A program made the translations under genes and the position numbers. Shown piece after piece: positions 24,365 through 32,956 of a DNA stretch of 37,501 nucleotides. Each line of letters opens with the position of its first letter. The first letter of the stretch is position 1. Below the pieces are notes generated by a model. The model saw only the letters and a list, made by a program, of their open reading frames with translations. It was not told where the DNA came from and searched no databases. Source of the DNA: a virus; IMG/VR virus record IMGVR_UViG_3300046009_002327, positions 1 through 37,501 of that record; one strand, written 5' to 3'.

Positions 24365-25327
24365 ATGGCTAGCCCCAACAGCACCTTCACGGAACTGGTG
24401 ACTTCCACCTTCCGCAAGGTTCGCAAGGATGTCAAGGACAACCTCACGAACCGCAACGCCCTTCTGAAGCACATGTACAAGCGCGGCAACTATCGCAGCG
24501 AAGACGGCGGCCTGACCATCGTCACCCCGCTCGACTATGCCGAGAACTCGACCTACCAGCGTTACAGCGACTGGGATCTGCTGAACATCGGCGCGTCCGA
24601 CGTTATCAGCGCCGCCGAATACCAGTGGCGTCAGATCGCTGTCAACATCGTTGCCTCTGGCCGCGAGAAGCGCATCAACTCCGGTGAGAGCCGCATCTTC
24701 TCGCTGGCGAAGTCGAAGATGAAGAATGCGATTCGCACCTTCAACAACAACTTCTCGTCCGACCTGTACTCGGCTGGCACCCTGTCCAACCAGATCAACG
24801 GTCTGCAGGCTCTGGTTTCCGATCTCGGCACCGGCACTGTCGGCGGCATCGACTCTGGCGTCTATACGTTCTGGAAAAGCCAGATTTTCGACTGCTCGGA
24901 CAACTCGGTGACTGCCTCGGCTACCACCATTGAGAACAGCATCATGCTTCCGCTGTGGCTCAATCTGGATCGCGGCCCCGATGACCAGCCCGACCTGATC
25001 GTGATGGACAACACGTTCTACAAGTATTTCGAGGCTTCGCAGACCAGCATCAAGCGCTACATGAGTTCCGAAAGCGCCAATGCCGGCCTGGTTTCCCTGA
25101 AGTACAAGAACGCCGACGTCTACTTCGACGGCAACTCCGGTATCCCCACGACCCACGCCTACTTCCTGAACTCGAACTATCTGGAACTGGTTGTGCATCG
25201 TGACGCCGATCTGGAGATCGTGGATTCGCAGCGTCCGATCAACCAAGACGGCGATGTGGTTCCGATCCTGTGGATGGGCAACCTGACTTGCTCCAACCGT
25301 CATCAACAAGGTTTGGCTCTGGCCTAA
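24365..25327 (+). CDS. Major capsid protein
   Basis: A 320-residue protein after the scaffold with strong SD (aaggag). Its pattern (MASPNSTFTELVTSTFRK, SDWDLLNIGASDVISAAEYQ, PDLIVMDNTFYKYFEASQ and the closing VVPILWMGNLTCSNRHQQGL) fits HK97-fold phage coat proteins. Codon choice shifts toward C-ending, efficiently read codons compared with the flanking genes, as expected for the most abundant virion protein. No N-terminal delta domain is evident, which suits a separate scaffold. Confidence 0.88.
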   Translation: MASPNSTFTELVTSTFRKVRKDVKDNLTNRNALLKHMYKRGNYRSEDGGLTIVTPLDYAENSTYQRYSDWDLLNIGASDVISAAEYQWRQIAVNIVASGREKRINSGESRIFSLAKSKMKNAIRTFNNNFSSDLYSAGTLSNQINGLQALVSDLGTGTVGGIDSGVYTFWKSQIFDCSDNSVTASATTIENSIMLPLWLNLDRGPDDQPDLIVMDNTFYKYFEASQTSIKRYMSSESANAGLVSLKYKNADVYFDGNSGIPTTHAYFLNSNYLELVVHRDADLEIVDSQRPINQDGDVVPILWMGNLTCSNRHQQGLALA

Positions 25328-25347: not shown

Positions 25348-25851
25348 ATGACCTACGCAATTCATTCCCAAGCCGGCGCTCAAGCCATCGCCAGCACCAG
25401 CTCTACGGCGGTTCATCCGCTCGGCACTAAGGTGACTGCAACCGACCCCACCTACGGTCAGGGCGAGTTCATCTACCTGCTCGGAGTTGCTTCCACCACC
25501 GTTGGTGATCTGGTTGTTTACAACGCAACCACTTACCAAACCGCCCTGATGACCACTACCAACAGTGAGAACAAGGGTCAGCCGCTGGCAGTTGCGATGT
25601 CGGCAAACCTCGCCGCAGGTTACGGGTGGTATCAAATCCGTGGCAATGCGGTTATCAAGAAGACCGGTGTTGCGGTTACGCCGCAAGTTCCGGTGTTCAT
25701 CTCGGCTACCGCTGGCCGTATCAAGGTTCTCGCCTCTTCTGGGCAGCAGGTTCTCGGCGCTCAGACGGCAAACCTGACCACGGTTGTTACCACCACCTCC
25801 ACGGTTGTTGTGACGATCAATGCCCCGACTTCGCAAGGGCAGATCACCTAA
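25348..25851 (+). CDS. Probable capsid decoration / head-associated protein
   Basis: A 167-residue protein from ATG 25348 (SD aaagga), directly after the coat gene. It is beta-rich and made of Ala, Thr, Val and Gly (GEFIYLLGVASTTVGDLVVY, IRGNAVIKKTGVAVTPQVPV). It resembles the head-decoration or cement proteins often found here. It ends in a Thr/Val-rich strand. Role is positional inference. Confidence 0.7.
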   Translation: MTYAIHSQAGAQAIASTSSTAVHPLGTKVTATDPTYGQGEFIYLLGVASTTVGDLVVYNATTYQTALMTTTNSENKGQPLAVAMSANLAAGYGWYQIRGNAVIKKTGVAVTPQVPVFISATAGRIKVLASSGQQVLGAQTANLTTVVTTTSTVVVTINAPTSQGQIT

Positions 25852-25854
25852 GAC

Positions 25855-25977
25855 GTGAGTTTTACCTACCCGCCCTCACAAGGGGTGGGTAGTATAAAGC
25901 TCATGCTTTCGTTTACAATCCTGTTGGTCGTTTGGGCGCTCATGCTCATAGTCATTTTCAGGGATGATAAATTCTAA
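25855..25977 (+). CDS. Small single-TM protein between head and transferase genes
   Basis: The frame from GTG 25855 gives 40 residues; from ATG 25903 it gives 24 (MLSFTILLVVWALMLIVIFR). Either way it is one strong membrane segment with a charged end (RDDKF). Neither start has a good SD. Its stop overlaps the methyltransferase ATG (TAATG), which favours translation. It might anchor or couple the transferases at the membrane. Confidence 0.4.
   Translation: MSFTYPPSQGVGSIKLMLSFTILLVVWALMLIVIFRDDKF
25866..25892 (+). terminator. Stable hairpin after the head genes
   Basis: CTACCCGCCC (25866-25875) pairs with GGGTGGGTAG (25883-25892) with one G-T pair and a 7-base loop. No T-run follows, so it is more likely an attenuating or mRNA-protecting hairpin that lowers expression of the genes after the capsid block. 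Confidence 0.55.
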
Positions 25978-26420
25978 TGCTAGATCCTTATGCAACGCAC
26001 CTTGAAGCACTGGTGAATGCAGCACTGGAATCAAAAGGGAACATTCTTGAGCTAGGCTGTGGAAACTACTCCACACCGATACTTTCCGCAGTAGTAAGGC
26101 ATCGCGGAGACAACCTTTTCGTAAAGTCATCCAGCCCTGAATGGGCTTTGCAATTCACAGACTTTGCTGAAGTTGAGTTGGTTGATTGGGGATCGTGGGT
26201 TCCCTCTGGAAGATACGGGATGATCTTCCTAGACAATGAACAACTCACATTCCATCGAATCCAGTGGCTTCCTGAGTTAGCGAAGCATTGCGACACAATA
26301 GTCATGCACGACTCCGACGCGGCTATGCAACACGCGCACTATCCAGAGATGATCTCAGGATTCAAGAAGATAACCACCTACAATAAGCACATACCTTGGA
26401 CGGTAGTAATGACATGCTGA
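25977..26420 (+). CDS. Small class I SAM-dependent methyltransferase-like protein
   Basis: A 147-residue protein with a glycine-rich motif I ILELGCGNYSTP (23-34), an acidic strand-end FAEVELVDWGSW, and FLDNEQ in the place of motif IV. It is short for the family, lacking an extra substrate lid, but the core appears intact. It overlaps the glycosyltransferase gene by 7 bases. Together they may build or cap a glycan. Substrate unknown; methyl transfer is inferred from motif I. Confidence 0.65.
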   Translation: MLDPYATHLEALVNAALESKGNILELGCGNYSTPILSAVVRHRGDNLFVKSSSPEWALQFTDFAEVELVDWGSWVPSGRYGMIFLDNEQLTFHRIQWLPELAKHCDTIVMHDSDAAMQHAHYPEMISGFKKITTYNKHIPWTVVMTC

Positions 26421-27829
26421 ATGTCATCTGTCTGAAAGCAGGAAAGGCTTACGGCCCAGAGTACGTCAATATCCTGTTTGATATGGTTCGCAGGAGCCTG
26501 ACCGAAGGATTTCCAGGTAAGTTCTGGTGCATTACCGATGACCCGACCGGGCTTGATGATGGCGTAGAAGTTATCCCGTTGCCGCCAGATTTGGAAACGT
26601 GGTGGGGGAAACTCTACATGTTCAAGCGAGGTCTGTTCCGTGATGGGGCTAGATGCCTGTTCATGGACTTGGACACATTGGTAGTCGGCAACATTGACGA
26701 GATTGCAAAATACGACGGCCAGTTTGCTACTTTAAGAGACTTCTACTATCCGCAGCAACTCGGCCCGGCAATAATCGCATGGGAGGCCGGCGACTTCGCA
26801 GGATCTGTGTGGGGAGAATGGGTAGCTCAAGGTAAGCCGCGTCATGCGATGGGCGACCTATGGTGGCTGAACAATCTTGACCAAGGGCGCTTCGCAAAAG
26901 AGATTGACATTCTTCAAGATCTGTACCCCGGCAAATTCGTCAGCTACAAAGTTTCCTGCAAGCCGTACCCTCCGAAAGGAACTAGCGTTGTCTGCTTCCA
27001 CGGTCAGCCTAAGCCTAGTAATTGCGGTCAGTCGTGGGTTGCCGGCGTATGGAAGGTTGGCGGTAACACAAGCACAGAACTGGAAGTACGCGCTAACACA
27101 GACTTTGAATCAGTCAAGGAAAATGTTTTATCAGCCTGCTCCCGTGATTTGCCGTGGCTTGAACTGAAGTCGGCGCATGATAGTCATGCCGTGATCGTTG
27201 CCGGTGGGCCGTCGCTTGAGCGCACCTTACCAGAAGTCAAGTGGCGGCATTTACTAGGCCAGACGGTCATTGCTCTGAATGGCACTGCCGAATATCTGAA
27301 CAAGCATGGTATTCGGCCTGACATCCATGTGGTGATTGACGCTAGGGCGCATAACGAGCGATTTATGAATTCGTGGTGGAGCAAGGAACGATTTCTAGCC
27401 TCACAGTGCGACCCATCAGTATTCGACAAGTCAGGTGGCAACACCACGCTTTTCCACATGAACACCGAAGGAATCAGCAGCATTCTTCCGGCTGACAGGG
27501 TTGCTCACCTGATAAGTTCTGGCACTACTGTTGGGCTTGCAGCGATGGCGATTGCCTATACGCAGGGGTACAGGACTATTCACCTGCATGGATTTGACTC
27601 CAGTTATTCCGAGAACCATCACGCTTACGCACAACCAGAGAACGATCAGGATGTTACGGTAGAGGTATCTGTCGGGGATCGAACCTTCAAGTGCGCCGCA
27701 TGGATGGCAACGCAGGCGCAGCAGTTTCAAGACCTTGCCTTGCAATTGGCAGCGGAAGGGGTAATAATCACGGTAGCGGGTGATGGTCTTATCCCTTATA
27801 TCGCCCATTGTATGTCCAAAGGAGATTGA
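26414..27829 (+). CDS. Fusion of GT8-like glycosyltransferase and DUF115 (MptE/Maf-like) domain
   Basis: A 471-residue protein starting at ATG 26414, inside the methyltransferase end. Domain 1 (about 1-215) is a GT-A-type transferase: CITDDPTGL, WWGKLYMFKRGLF, the metal-binding DLD at 85-87, and a closing HGQPKP (196-201) like the GT8 HxxGxxKP motif. Domain 2 (about 255-465) fits DUF115: VIVAGGPSLERTL, ALNGTAEYL, RPDIHVVIDA and GTTVGLAAMAIAYTQGY then HLHGFDSSYSENHH. DUF115 domains occur in Maf flagellin glycosyltransferases. The pair likely adds sugars to a virion or host surface; substrate unknown. Confidence 0.8.
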   Translation: MLNVICLKAGKAYGPEYVNILFDMVRRSLTEGFPGKFWCITDDPTGLDDGVEVIPLPPDLETWWGKLYMFKRGLFRDGARCLFMDLDTLVVGNIDEIAKYDGQFATLRDFYYPQQLGPAIIAWEAGDFAGSVWGEWVAQGKPRHAMGDLWWLNNLDQGRFAKEIDILQDLYPGKFVSYKVSCKPYPPKGTSVVCFHGQPKPSNCGQSWVAGVWKVGGNTSTELEVRANTDFESVKENVLSACSRDLPWLELKSAHDSHAVIVAGGPSLERTLPEVKWRHLLGQTVIALNGTAEYLNKHGIRPDIHVVIDARAHNERFMNSWWSKERFLASQCDPSVFDKSGGNTTLFHMNTEGISSILPADRVAHLISSGTTVGLAAMAIAYTQGYRTIHLHGFDSSYSENHHAYAQPENDQDVTVEVSVGDRTFKCAAWMATQAQQFQDLALQLAAEGVIITVAGDGLIPYIAHCMSKGD

Positions 27830-27830
27830 C

Positions 27831-28046
27831 ATGGCTATTACTGGCGCTCAGTTGCAAACCGCATTGGGAGATGGTTCCACCGATGCCAAAGTCACGCAGG
27901 AATTCGGCGTGGTCAGCACCTATCAGGAGTGGTATGTCGAGGGCAATCTCGATGCACCGGGCCGTGCCAAGCTGATCCGCACCACCGCTGCCGACAACGC
28001 GGCTACGCAAGCCGCTGCCGTCCTGACCGCCCTCAACGCAAACTAA
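27831..28046 (+). CDS. 71-residue hypothetical structural-module protein
   Basis: ATG 27831 is chosen for its SD aaaggag seven bases before it. The product (MAITGAQLQTALGDGSTDAK... TQEFGVVSTYQEWYVEGN) is soluble with an Ala-rich C-terminal helix. It resembles small proteins next to phage connector genes but no family is certain. Confidence 0.6.
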   Translation: MAITGAQLQTALGDGSTDAKVTQEFGVVSTYQEWYVEGNLDAPGRAKLIRTTAADNAATQAAAVLTALNAN

Positions 28047-28058
28047 GGAGCCTTACAC

Positions 28059-28790
28059 ATGTCCGTCGGAGAAGTGTCTAACCGCGAAGAACGTCCTGCC
28101 TATGTTCGCTTTGAGCGCCGCCCTGTCGAAGACAAGGAAGCCAGCTTGCGCGAAGGCAGGTACATTGCGAAGGATGTTGATTTCGCTTTAGTGACGCCGC
28201 CGTACTCCAAAGACTGTGTTGAGCAGAAAGTCACCCGTTGGCTTGAAGACCTTGATCGTGGTGTTCGTGATGGACGCATTCCGCAGCAGTGGGCAAGCCT
28301 GTGGAAAGAAGGCTACCAGAAGTGGCAGAACGGGCAGGAGATGCCGATCCACGGTACGCCTATCCTCGGTTGGGGAGTAGTGTCGCCGGCACAGCAGAAG
28401 ATGCTGATCGCTATCAATTGCCTGACCGTGGAAGACCTCGCGCAAATCAACGACGAGGGCATGAAGCGCATTGGCATGGGCGCTTTAGACCTCCGCAACA
28501 AGGCGAAGAACTGGCTGGCTTCCGTGAAAGACCACGGAGGCTTGACTATCCAGATGTCTGCGCTTGAGTCCGAGAACAAGCAGTTGAAAGCAACGCTTGA
28601 CGGGCTGAAGGCTCAGGTTGAGGCGCTGAAGCAAATGATCCCGCAGCAGCCACAGGTGATGCAACAACCGTATGTCGAGCAGGGCATCAGTGCTTCCGAC
28701 TTGCTGGATGATGAGCCTGTCGTAGAGGTTGCAGAACCCGTAAAGCGCCGTGGCCGTCCTCCGAAGCAGGAAGCCCAAACAGAGATTTGA
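28059..28790 (+). CDS. Virion/connector-module protein with helix-hairpin-helix-like region, coiled coil and AT-hook end
   Basis: A 243-residue protein. A segment near 120-155 (NCLTVEDLAQINDEGMKRIG) looks like a helix-hairpin-helix or SAM-type bundle. Residues about 167-200 form a coiled coil, then a Gln/Pro linker, and the end is KRRGRPPK, an AT-hook core. These parts suggest DNA contact within the head or during packaging. Proteins of this build recur upstream of the adaptor in podoviruses, yet the function is unknown. Confidence 0.62.
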   Translation: MSVGEVSNREERPAYVRFERRPVEDKEASLREGRYIAKDVDFALVTPPYSKDCVEQKVTRWLEDLDRGVRDGRIPQQWASLWKEGYQKWQNGQEMPIHGTPILGWGVVSPAQQKMLIAINCLTVEDLAQINDEGMKRIGMGALDLRNKAKNWLASVKDHGGLTIQMSALESENKQLKATLDGLKAQVEALKQMIPQQPQVMQQPYVEQGISASDLLDDEPVVEVAEPVKRRGRPPKQEAQTEI

Positions 28791-30915: not shown

Positions 30916-32474
30916 TGAGAACACCAATCCGATCCAAAGGCGTCAGGCAGCGTGTATCTCGCTCCATGTCCTATTCCGCACCTGTAGGTGGATGGAACGC
31001 TAGGGATGCTCTGGCGGCAATGAAGCCGAATCAAGCTATTGTTCTGAGCAACTGGTTCCCCAAGACTTCGTACTGCGAGATTCGTGGTGGTTATTTGAGC
31101 CATGCCACAGGCGCTACTGGATCAATAAAGACGCTTGCCGTGTATAACGGCATGTCTGGAACTTCCAAGATGTTTGCATCCACGCCTTCTGGCGTATATG
31201 ACGTATCCAGCGCAGGGGCTGTGGGTGCTTCTGTAGCATCAAGGACTGATGGCAAGCACCAGTGCATCAACTTTGCTGACGGCACGAACCAGTACCTGAT
31301 GATGTTCAATGGTGTTGATAAGCCTCTCTACTACGATGGTTCAAGTTGGATAGCGGTTGATGGTGTGACTTCTCCAGCCTTAACCGGGCTGACCACGACG
31401 AGCATTTTCAGCGCCTTTGTGTTCAAGGGAAGGCTGATATTTCTTGAAAAGAACTCGCTCTCCTTCTGGTATCTTGCTTCAGGGGTAGCTGGCGGCGCTT
31501 TGACCGAGTTCGATCTTGGTGGCGTTGCAAAGAAGGGCGGTTACTTGGTAGCCGCTGCAACCTGGACGATTGATGCCGGCGATGGTTCAGACGATAAAGC
31601 CGTGTTCGTAACCTCTGAGGGCGAGTGCTTGGTGTATCAAGGTACAAACCCTTCCAGTGCTACTGCATGGGCGCTGGTTGGCGTCTACGACATTGGCGAA
31701 CCTCTTGGCCGCAGGTGTCTGACCCGGTTGGGTGGTGATTTGATCATCATCACGCAGAACGGTGTATTCCCGCTTTCTGCGGCCCTACAGACGGCGACGA
31801 TTGATAATCGACTCGCTATCACCAACATCATCGAAGATGCCTTTGCCGACGCTGCTAGGTCGTATGGTGCCAACTTTGGCTGGGAGGCGATTCAGTACCC
31901 GGCTCAGGGTGCCATGATCGTGAATGTCCCGATTACTGAGGGCGGCACTCATGAGCAGTATGTGATGAACACCATCACAAAAGCGTGGTGCAAGTTCACT
32001 TCATGGAATGCCGAGACTTTCGCTGTGTTCAATGGCGAGTTGTACTACGCCACAGGAACTACGGTTCAGAAGGCATGGACAGGTACGATTGATGGAGCCA
32101 ACAACATCATTGCTTACGGCAAGACGGCATTCTCGTACTTTGGTGATATGGGAAGCCAGAAGCGGTACAACATGTTCCGGCCCGTATTGACGGTGAATGG
32201 TACGCTTTCCTTCCTGACAGACATCGATGTTGATTTTAGCGACAACATAATGACCGGATCGACAACGTACTCGGTTACGTCAAGTTCGTCGTGGAACGCA
32301 AGTAATTGGGATGTGGCTAGCTGGGCCGCAGGAATGGAAGTCGTTAAGGAATGGACTTCTCCTGACGAAGACCTTGGCTACTGCGCGTCTGGAAAGATCA
32401 AGATTGAGACAAACAGCCTGACGGTTCAATGGATATCTCAGGATTGGATATTCGAGGTAGGGAACGCGCTGTGA
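30915..32474 (+). CDS. Beta-propeller-like tail hub / DNA-stabilisation protein (P22 gp10-like role)
   Basis: A 519-residue protein from ATG 30915 (adjacent TTG rejected). It opens SYSAPVGGWNARDALAAMKP and then repeats blade-like strands (KTLAVYNGM, MFASTPSGVYDVS, LYYDGSSW, AFVFKGRLIFLEKNSLSFWY, LGGDLIIITQNGVFPLS). That is the look of propeller-type tail hub proteins that close the portal channel. It lacks a recognisable enzymatic site. Role is inferred from pattern and order. Confidence 0.68.
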   Translation: MRTPIRSKGVRQRVSRSMSYSAPVGGWNARDALAAMKPNQAIVLSNWFPKTSYCEIRGGYLSHATGATGSIKTLAVYNGMSGTSKMFASTPSGVYDVSSAGAVGASVASRTDGKHQCINFADGTNQYLMMFNGVDKPLYYDGSSWIAVDGVTSPALTGLTTTSIFSAFVFKGRLIFLEKNSLSFWYLASGVAGGALTEFDLGGVAKKGGYLVAAATWTIDAGDGSDDKAVFVTSEGECLVYQGTNPSSATAWALVGVYDIGEPLGRRCLTRLGGDLIIITQNGVFPLSAALQTATIDNRLAITNIIEDAFADAARSYGANFGWEAIQYPAQGAMIVNVPITEGGTHEQYVMNTITKAWCKFTSWNAETFAVFNGELYYATGTTVQKAWTGTIDGANNIIAYGKTAFSYFGDMGSQKRYNMFRPVLTVNGTLSFLTDIDVDFSDNIMTGSTTYSVTSSSSWNASNWDVASWAAGMEVVKEWTSPDEDLGYCASGKIKIETNSLTVQWISQDWIFEVGNAL

Positions 32475-32956
32475 GTGTTACCTACGACATTGAGCCGTTA
32501 TCCGATTGCTGGCCTGAGATTGAAGCAATTGGCCGCGCTCATTGGCAGGAAACGATGGAGTATTACCGTGGGAAGCAGCCTTACGCGCCATCCTATGACC
32601 GTTACAACAGCTACGACAAGGCCGGATGGCTCATTACCTTCACGGCGCGGGACTCCGAGACAGGTCAGATGGTCGGCTACAGCCTGATGTATCTGGTGCC
32701 ATCGATGCACACGCAGACCATGATTGCCACAGAGGATACGATATTCCTGCTGCCTGAGTACAGGCGAGGGAGGAATGGTTTGCGGTTCCACCAGTTCATT
32801 GAGTCCGAGTTGCGAGAGCGTGGAGCGCGGGAGATCGTGGTCACAGCGAAGCCGGGATCAGCCGCTTGCCGATTGCTTGAGCATATCGGGTTCAGCGTTA
32901 TCAATCACCAATACAGCAAACACCTAGACGCGGCAGAGTCTTTACAAGCCGCATGA
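32471..32956 (+). CDS. GNAT family N-acetyltransferase
   Basis: A 161-residue protein with GTG 32471 overlapping the hub stop (GTGA). Core GNAT parts are visible: GYSLMYLVPSMHTQT (strand 4), IFLLPEYRRGRNGLRF with the R-R-G-x-N-G acetyl-CoA loop, then EIVVTAKPGSAACRLLEHIG (strand 5, helix 4). GNAT genes recur in the tail region of podoviruses. It may acetylate a virion protein or a host target; neither is shown. Confidence 0.8.
   Translation: MSVTYDIEPLSDCWPEIEAIGRAHWQETMEYYRGKQPYAPSYDRYNSYDKAGWLITFTARDSETGQMVGYSLMYLVPSMHTQTMIATEDTIFLLPEYRRGRNGLRFHQFIESELRERGAREIVVTAKPGSAACRLLEHIGFSVINHQYSKHLDAAESLQAA

Follow-up and report, generated by a model that had tools for sequence, protein, structure and literature searches.

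Few cases of virion glycosylation in phages are known to us, and in these the enzyme and its target have usually been solved one phage at a time. Maf enzymes, which O-glycosylate Ser/Thr residues of flagellin, a self-assembling surface protein (PMC11339370), share the PF01973/Maf_flag10 domain with the phage protein described here, and the Maf structure 5MU5 is its nearest solved relative by both profile and fold. Only this region is common to the two: the phage protein is without the Maf N- and C-terminal domains, and so does not have the three-domain Maf architecture, being fused instead to GT8, GT2 or methyltransferase domains, and its genes are tied to a decoration protein, not to flagellin. 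As relayed in the passages of two later papers that cite Freeman et al. 2023, the mycobacteriophages Che8, Corndog and Myrna encode glycosyltransferases that glycosylate virion proteins, the glycans being reported from the C-terminal ends of capsid and tail-tube subunits (PMC12619734; PMC12363180). These phages infect another host group, whereas here the predicted target is a decoration protein and the enzyme genes are locked behind its gene. Homologous GT8-type domains (PHROG 1962) are found in P1 PmgQ and P7 HdmD, but these are single-domain proteins encoded outside any decoration slot. 'MptE-like' proteins of uncultured Caudovirales (e.g. A0A6J5PVH5) are ~42% identical to the phage fusion over most of its length; they exist as database entries only, under a misleading name, and the literature that we searched held no functional account of phage MptE-like or DUF115 proteins.

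The locus lies in a 37,501-nucleotide stretch of viral DNA (the window). Its head module resembles that of Myxococcus phage Mx8, in which homologues of the major capsid protein (MCP) and of the decoration protein are encoded in matching order. Unlike the window, Mx8 has no cassette of modification genes; its p50 gene directly follows the decoration gene, and its decoration protein carries a tail of another type.

The slot behind the decoration gene

All features described for this region lie on the plus strand. The MCP gene (24365-25327; PHROG 9953, major head protein, 5.6e-74) is followed by the gene of a decoration-type virion structural protein (DECO, 25348-25851; PHROG 29386, virion structural protein, 4.6e-28), the predicted acceptor, whose homologues in Mx8 and Mx9 are annotated as major virion structural proteins. 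Three open reading frames fill the slot behind it, each touching or overlapping the next, as the sequence-only reading had placed them: a putative 40-aa single-TM peptide (25855-25977), a 147-aa protein (25977-26420) and a GT8-DUF115 fusion of 471 aa from its ATG (26414-27829, with a possible TTG start at 26396). A small protein 3′ of the cassette (27831-28046) has no meaningful family match in Pfam or PHROG, and a conserved gene in the position of Mx8 p50 (28059-28790; PHROG 20268, syntenic in relatives) closes the slot.

The fusion protein joins two enzyme-like domains. Residues 5-215 (26426-27058) match the glycosyltransferase family PHROG 1962 (1.1e-29), and a 26-sequence profile matches PDB structures of GT8 enzymes (6MW5, 3.5e-10; glycogenin, 6e-7; GlyE, 8e-5), which the predicted fold also resembles. 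Within the DLD motif (aa 85-87), D85 and D87 are invariant in 26 of 26 alignment rows and L86 is kept in more than 90%, while the place of the C-terminal H-x-x-G-x-x-K-P-W-like motif of GT8 enzymes is taken in the same alignment by a shortened, conserved F-H-G-x-P-x-P (HG-P-P, aa 196-201). Residues 253-400 (27170-27613) match PF01973 (DUF115, Maf_flag10-like) at 5.5e-20, with 72.3 bits against a curated cut-off of 34.6. With a profile of this part, 5MU5, a Maf glycosyltransferase, is matched at 1.2e-12 and the archaeal MptE 8SD5 at 1.1e-3, and in a model of the whole protein (pLDDT 92.5) Foldseek ranks them in the same order (5MU5, 2.4e-8; 8SD5, 9e-6). By these family profiles the protein is a true fusion of a GT8-type glycosyltransferase with DUF115, and by profile and predicted fold its DUF115 part is nearest to Maf, not to MptE, which bears out what had been read from the sequence. 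Purifying selection acts on both parts (dN/dS between the window and the relative L003, 0.026 for GT8 and 0.071 for DUF115). The MptE-like label that many phage proteins carry in databases is thus misleading and is corrected by the Maf affinity of DUF115; the name '6-hydroxymethylpterin diphosphokinase MptE-like' is borne by BFVD entries A0A6J5PVH5, A0A6J7XC21 and others, which probably belong to the GT8-DUF115 kind of glycosyltransferase.

The 147-aa protein, which begins with an ATG, falls into no Pfam, PHROG or NCBIfam family; profile search against the PDB gave no clear match, and hhalign against the MTase_24 domains of relatives' cassettes was weak (65%). The question left by these searches was settled by the predicted fold: the best 50 PDB matches of the AF2 model (pLDDT 90) are methyltransferases only, and we therefore assign the protein to the class I methyltransferase fold. 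The Rossmann-like fold and motif I are present, ELGCGNYSTP and HD are conserved, and dN/dS against L003 (0.105) indicates purifying selection. The acidic residue after strand 2, the usual contact to the SAM ribose, is absent from the window protein and replaced by Ser or Ala throughout the GT8-linked clade, so that SAM binding is only putative, while homologues in three relatives (L005, L020, L021) have it. The minimal SAM methyltransferase of the sequence-only reading holds in fold and motif I but falls short at this residue. Methyl capping by this protein is plausible.

An RNA hairpin of 22 bp lies 3′ of DECO at 25854-25905 (-32.4 kcal/mol, z -7.5), and all three substitutions in L003 preserve its pairing. 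It had been suggested that the hairpin may lower expression of the cassette. The structure is real, but it carries no T-tract and hence no terminator-type signal, and hairpins of comparable strength occur 3′ of DECO in nearly every relative, whether the slot holds a cassette or is empty. It therefore probably belongs to the decoration transcript as such, and a role as cassette-specific attenuator was rejected; independently of the cassette, it could be an mRNA-stability or translation-tuning element. The candidate start codons of the putative TM peptide (GTG at 25855, alternatively ATG at 25903) all fall inside the hairpin, and the peptide, an open reading frame in both the window and L003, has no family match in Pfam or PHROG.

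Decoration protein type and the cassette in relatives

Relatives, almost all of them uncultured phages, were collected in two scans, one with the window DECO and one with an empty-slot decoration protein as query, keeping the best 80 loci per scan. When loci are divided by the C-terminal motif of DECO, in classes set after the sequences had been inspected, DUF115 occurs at 87 of the 87 distinct loci of one type with a readable slot and at none of the 84 loci of the other type, in scans that kept the 80 best loci each. The 87 include L086, which had appeared to have the DECO type without DUF115; this exception was rejected as an artefact of the ORF start, the domain being found by tblastn. Two exceptions are real: L162 combines DUF115 with a non-typical DECO tail, and L159 has GT8 without DUF115. 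When whole records, which may be fragments, are compared, all 24 cassette phages have PF01973 and none of the 24 empty-slot phages does; the latter thus appear to keep no enzyme elsewhere. One uncultured phage, 63% identical in its MCP, has a very divergent protein in the decoration position and no cassette.

Phylogenies place the association with DECO. An MCP tree of 77 dereplicated loci requires 15 changes in the presence of the cassette, and at least 8 of these fall on well-supported branches; the DECO tree requires only 2, and the same number when the C-terminal part is dropped and residues 1-112 alone are used. On these sequences the cassette is not explained by capsid ancestry. In independent pairs on the MCP tree, DECO type shifts in the same direction as the cassette in 6-7 of 8 and in the opposite direction in none (p ~0.016). 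An apparent discordance of Mx8 in this paired analysis was set aside as a product of the motif pattern, the Mx8 tail being of the empty type. Among 32 cassette phages, once the other neighbours are accounted for, DUF115 divergence follows that of DECO most closely (partial r 0.41, p 0.0005), that of the right-hand neighbour less (0.17) and that of MCP not at all (-0.05). Since DECO and DUF115 are adjacent, hitchhiking may account for some of the co-transfer, yet the right-hand neighbour tracks DUF115 less well. Glycosyltransferase genes that stand behind DECO and travel with it in a large group of Mx8-like phages suggest that these phages add sugars to their own coat and sometimes methylate those sugars.

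On this comparative evidence we consider it fairly probable that the cassette serves specifically to glyco-modify the capsid decoration protein whose gene precedes it. The nearest competing reading holds that the enzymes modify another virion protein, be it the major capsid, a tail or a fibre protein, and that their place behind the decoration gene is incidental. The cassette does sit in the structural operon, and adjacency by itself is able to give joint transfer, but cassette presence tracks the type of DECO and not of MCP, and DUF115 divergence shows no tracking of MCP once DECO is accounted for (in a comparison of DECO, MCP and the right-hand neighbour); we regard this alternative as unlikely. 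The earlier reading had left the choice between a virion protein and the host surface; co-occurrence and co-transfer narrow its first half to a likely target, DECO, and the slot contents described below weigh against its second.

Modules of the slot and other possible roles for the cassette

In Mx8-like phages the decoration and adaptor genes enclose a modular cassette site. The sequence-only reading held that the GT8-DUF115 fusion may be a little-described architecture, which is right in part: the architecture proves widespread in uncultured phages, in variants beyond the one it saw, but the pairing of GT8 with DUF115 is inconstant. Relatives carry FdtA with a GT2-GT8-DUF115 protein (L004), an NAD epimerase-like ORF and a methyltransferase with GT2-GT8-DUF115 (L005), a C-methyltransferase with GT2-GT8-DUF115-DUF115 (L027), GT8-DUF115-MTase_24 (L026, L029, L131), GT8-DUF115-FkbM (L082) or DUF115-methyltransferase (L030, L062), MTase_25 being a further accessory part, and in many phages DUF115 stands alone, starting a few bases past the decoration stop codon. 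Compared across slots, DUF115 is thus the constant part, to which GT8, GT2, methyltransferases, FdtA and others are optional additions. Named phages of the INPHARED set had no relative of DUF115; the matches there are GT8-only, and this set accordingly supplies no isolate with the cassette.

Several further arrangements were seen in the collected contigs. In unrelated phage contigs (L013-L019, e.g. L013:4737-5809), the gene of the small methyltransferase lies next to one for GT8 elsewhere in the genome, with no DUF115. One contig encodes a sulfotransferase-DUF115 fusion outside any recognised slot (L009:7329-8813) together with a second DUF115/alpha-2,3-sialyltransferase-like ORF (L009:14640-15227; PHROG 4603, 5e-37). 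A conserved protein of ~120-140 aa without a Pfam match, often in tandem, lies between DUF115 and the adaptor gene at L044:9267-9991 and ~50 like loci, and two loci (L041:7962-9077, L308:5965-7344) hold a tandem pair of decoration-type genes.

Slot contents also bear on whether the cassette acts on the host, remodelling surface glycans late in infection for receptor masking or superinfection exclusion as temperate-phage glycosyltransferases do. PmgQ and HdmD, being GT8-only relatives outside any decoration slot, would suit such a role, as would the methyltransferase-GT8 pairs at other sites in other phages; in the relatives' slots, however, we saw neither a membrane protein of the Gtr kind nor a flippase or lipid-carrier transferase, and the strict tie to one virion gene type speaks against action on the host, which makes this role quite improbable in our estimate. 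It is very improbable, too, that the genes are selfish or incidental cargo, a mobile pair in a tolerated spot with no part in the particle. The G+C content of the cassette (0.508 against 0.552) does lie at about the 1st percentile of the window, nearly its lowest, and varied modules occupy the same slot, but selection is strongly purifying and, over 171 loci (the best 80 per scan), there is no loss behind the matching DECO type and no gain behind the other. A place in cofactor metabolism, with PF01973 acting as a pterin pyrophosphokinase, we dismiss as scarcely credible: the Pfam name is 'MptE-like' and MptE 8SD5 does match, but Maf is far better by sequence and fold, and in relatives PF01973 is fused to GT8, GT2 or methyltransferases and lies next to FdtA.

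Proposed modification of the decoration protein

If the cassette is dedicated to DECO, as we prefer, the Maf-like DUF115 domain would most likely attach the first sugar to a Ser or Thr of this protein, GT8 (and in relatives also GT2) would extend the glycan, and the methyltransferase would cap it, while the FdtA, epimerase and C-methyltransferase modules of relatives may be the source of unusual sugars. This order of steps is proposed from the domain families, the DUF115 step by its likeness to Maf on flagellin. DECO as the acceptor, the residues used, the sequence of reactions, the donor sugar and the benefit, which might lie in shielding, surface binding or particle stability, are all predictions made from the genes.

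The modified site would probably lie in a C-terminal segment of DECO that is rich in Thr and poor in acidic residues (aa 133-167, 25744-25848) and that in the window ends in ANLTTVVTTTSTVVVTINAPTSQGQIT. Means for this segment in cassette and empty-slot phages are 6.4 and 1.8 Thr and 0.5 and 5.4 acidic residues, respectively, a difference that amounts to one main contrast, as the two DECO types are essentially two clades. Seven exceptional loci, in which the other DECO backbone type is found with a cassette, also have more Thr in the tail. In a second DECO lineage, examined in a replication scan planned beforehand, DUF115 is present at 74 loci, almost all among the matches listed, and the two empty slots have tails with 9 and 3 Thr, so that the prediction is not confirmed there. 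The Thr-rich tail was accordingly dropped as a general predictor, the main contrast and the seven loci agreeing with it and the second lineage not confirming it; in the window it is a candidate glycosylation region.

Because the decoration gene and the enzymes move between phages as one unit, the sugar coat of the particle would be exchangeable. We would give even chances to a broader proposal: environmental podophages would share a widespread, modular system for glycosylating protein, with a Maf-type O-glycosyltransferase genetically tied to a single capsid decoration protein, and the glycan coat of the capsid would be diversified by exchangeable modules for sugar synthesis, glycosyl transfer, methylation and other glyco functions, much as in O-antigen loci. 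The genome data point to a probable target (the decoration protein) and a core enzyme (DUF115), inserted at a shared site in more than 150 phage loci, and a matched natural control is offered by relatives whose decoration protein is of the other type and whose records lack the enzyme throughout. With target, core enzyme and control named, the question of why phages sugar-coat their capsids becomes directly testable.

Another modifying enzyme is encoded within the structural operon of the window, a GNAT acetyltransferase at 32429-32956 (+; PF00583, 5e-6). In BUCT555, ppBjS10J-1 and MW202489, GNAT or acetyltransferase genes are annotated right after a ~520-aa stabilization-type protein, and the GNAT is possibly a second conserved protein-modifying enzyme of the window's phage group.
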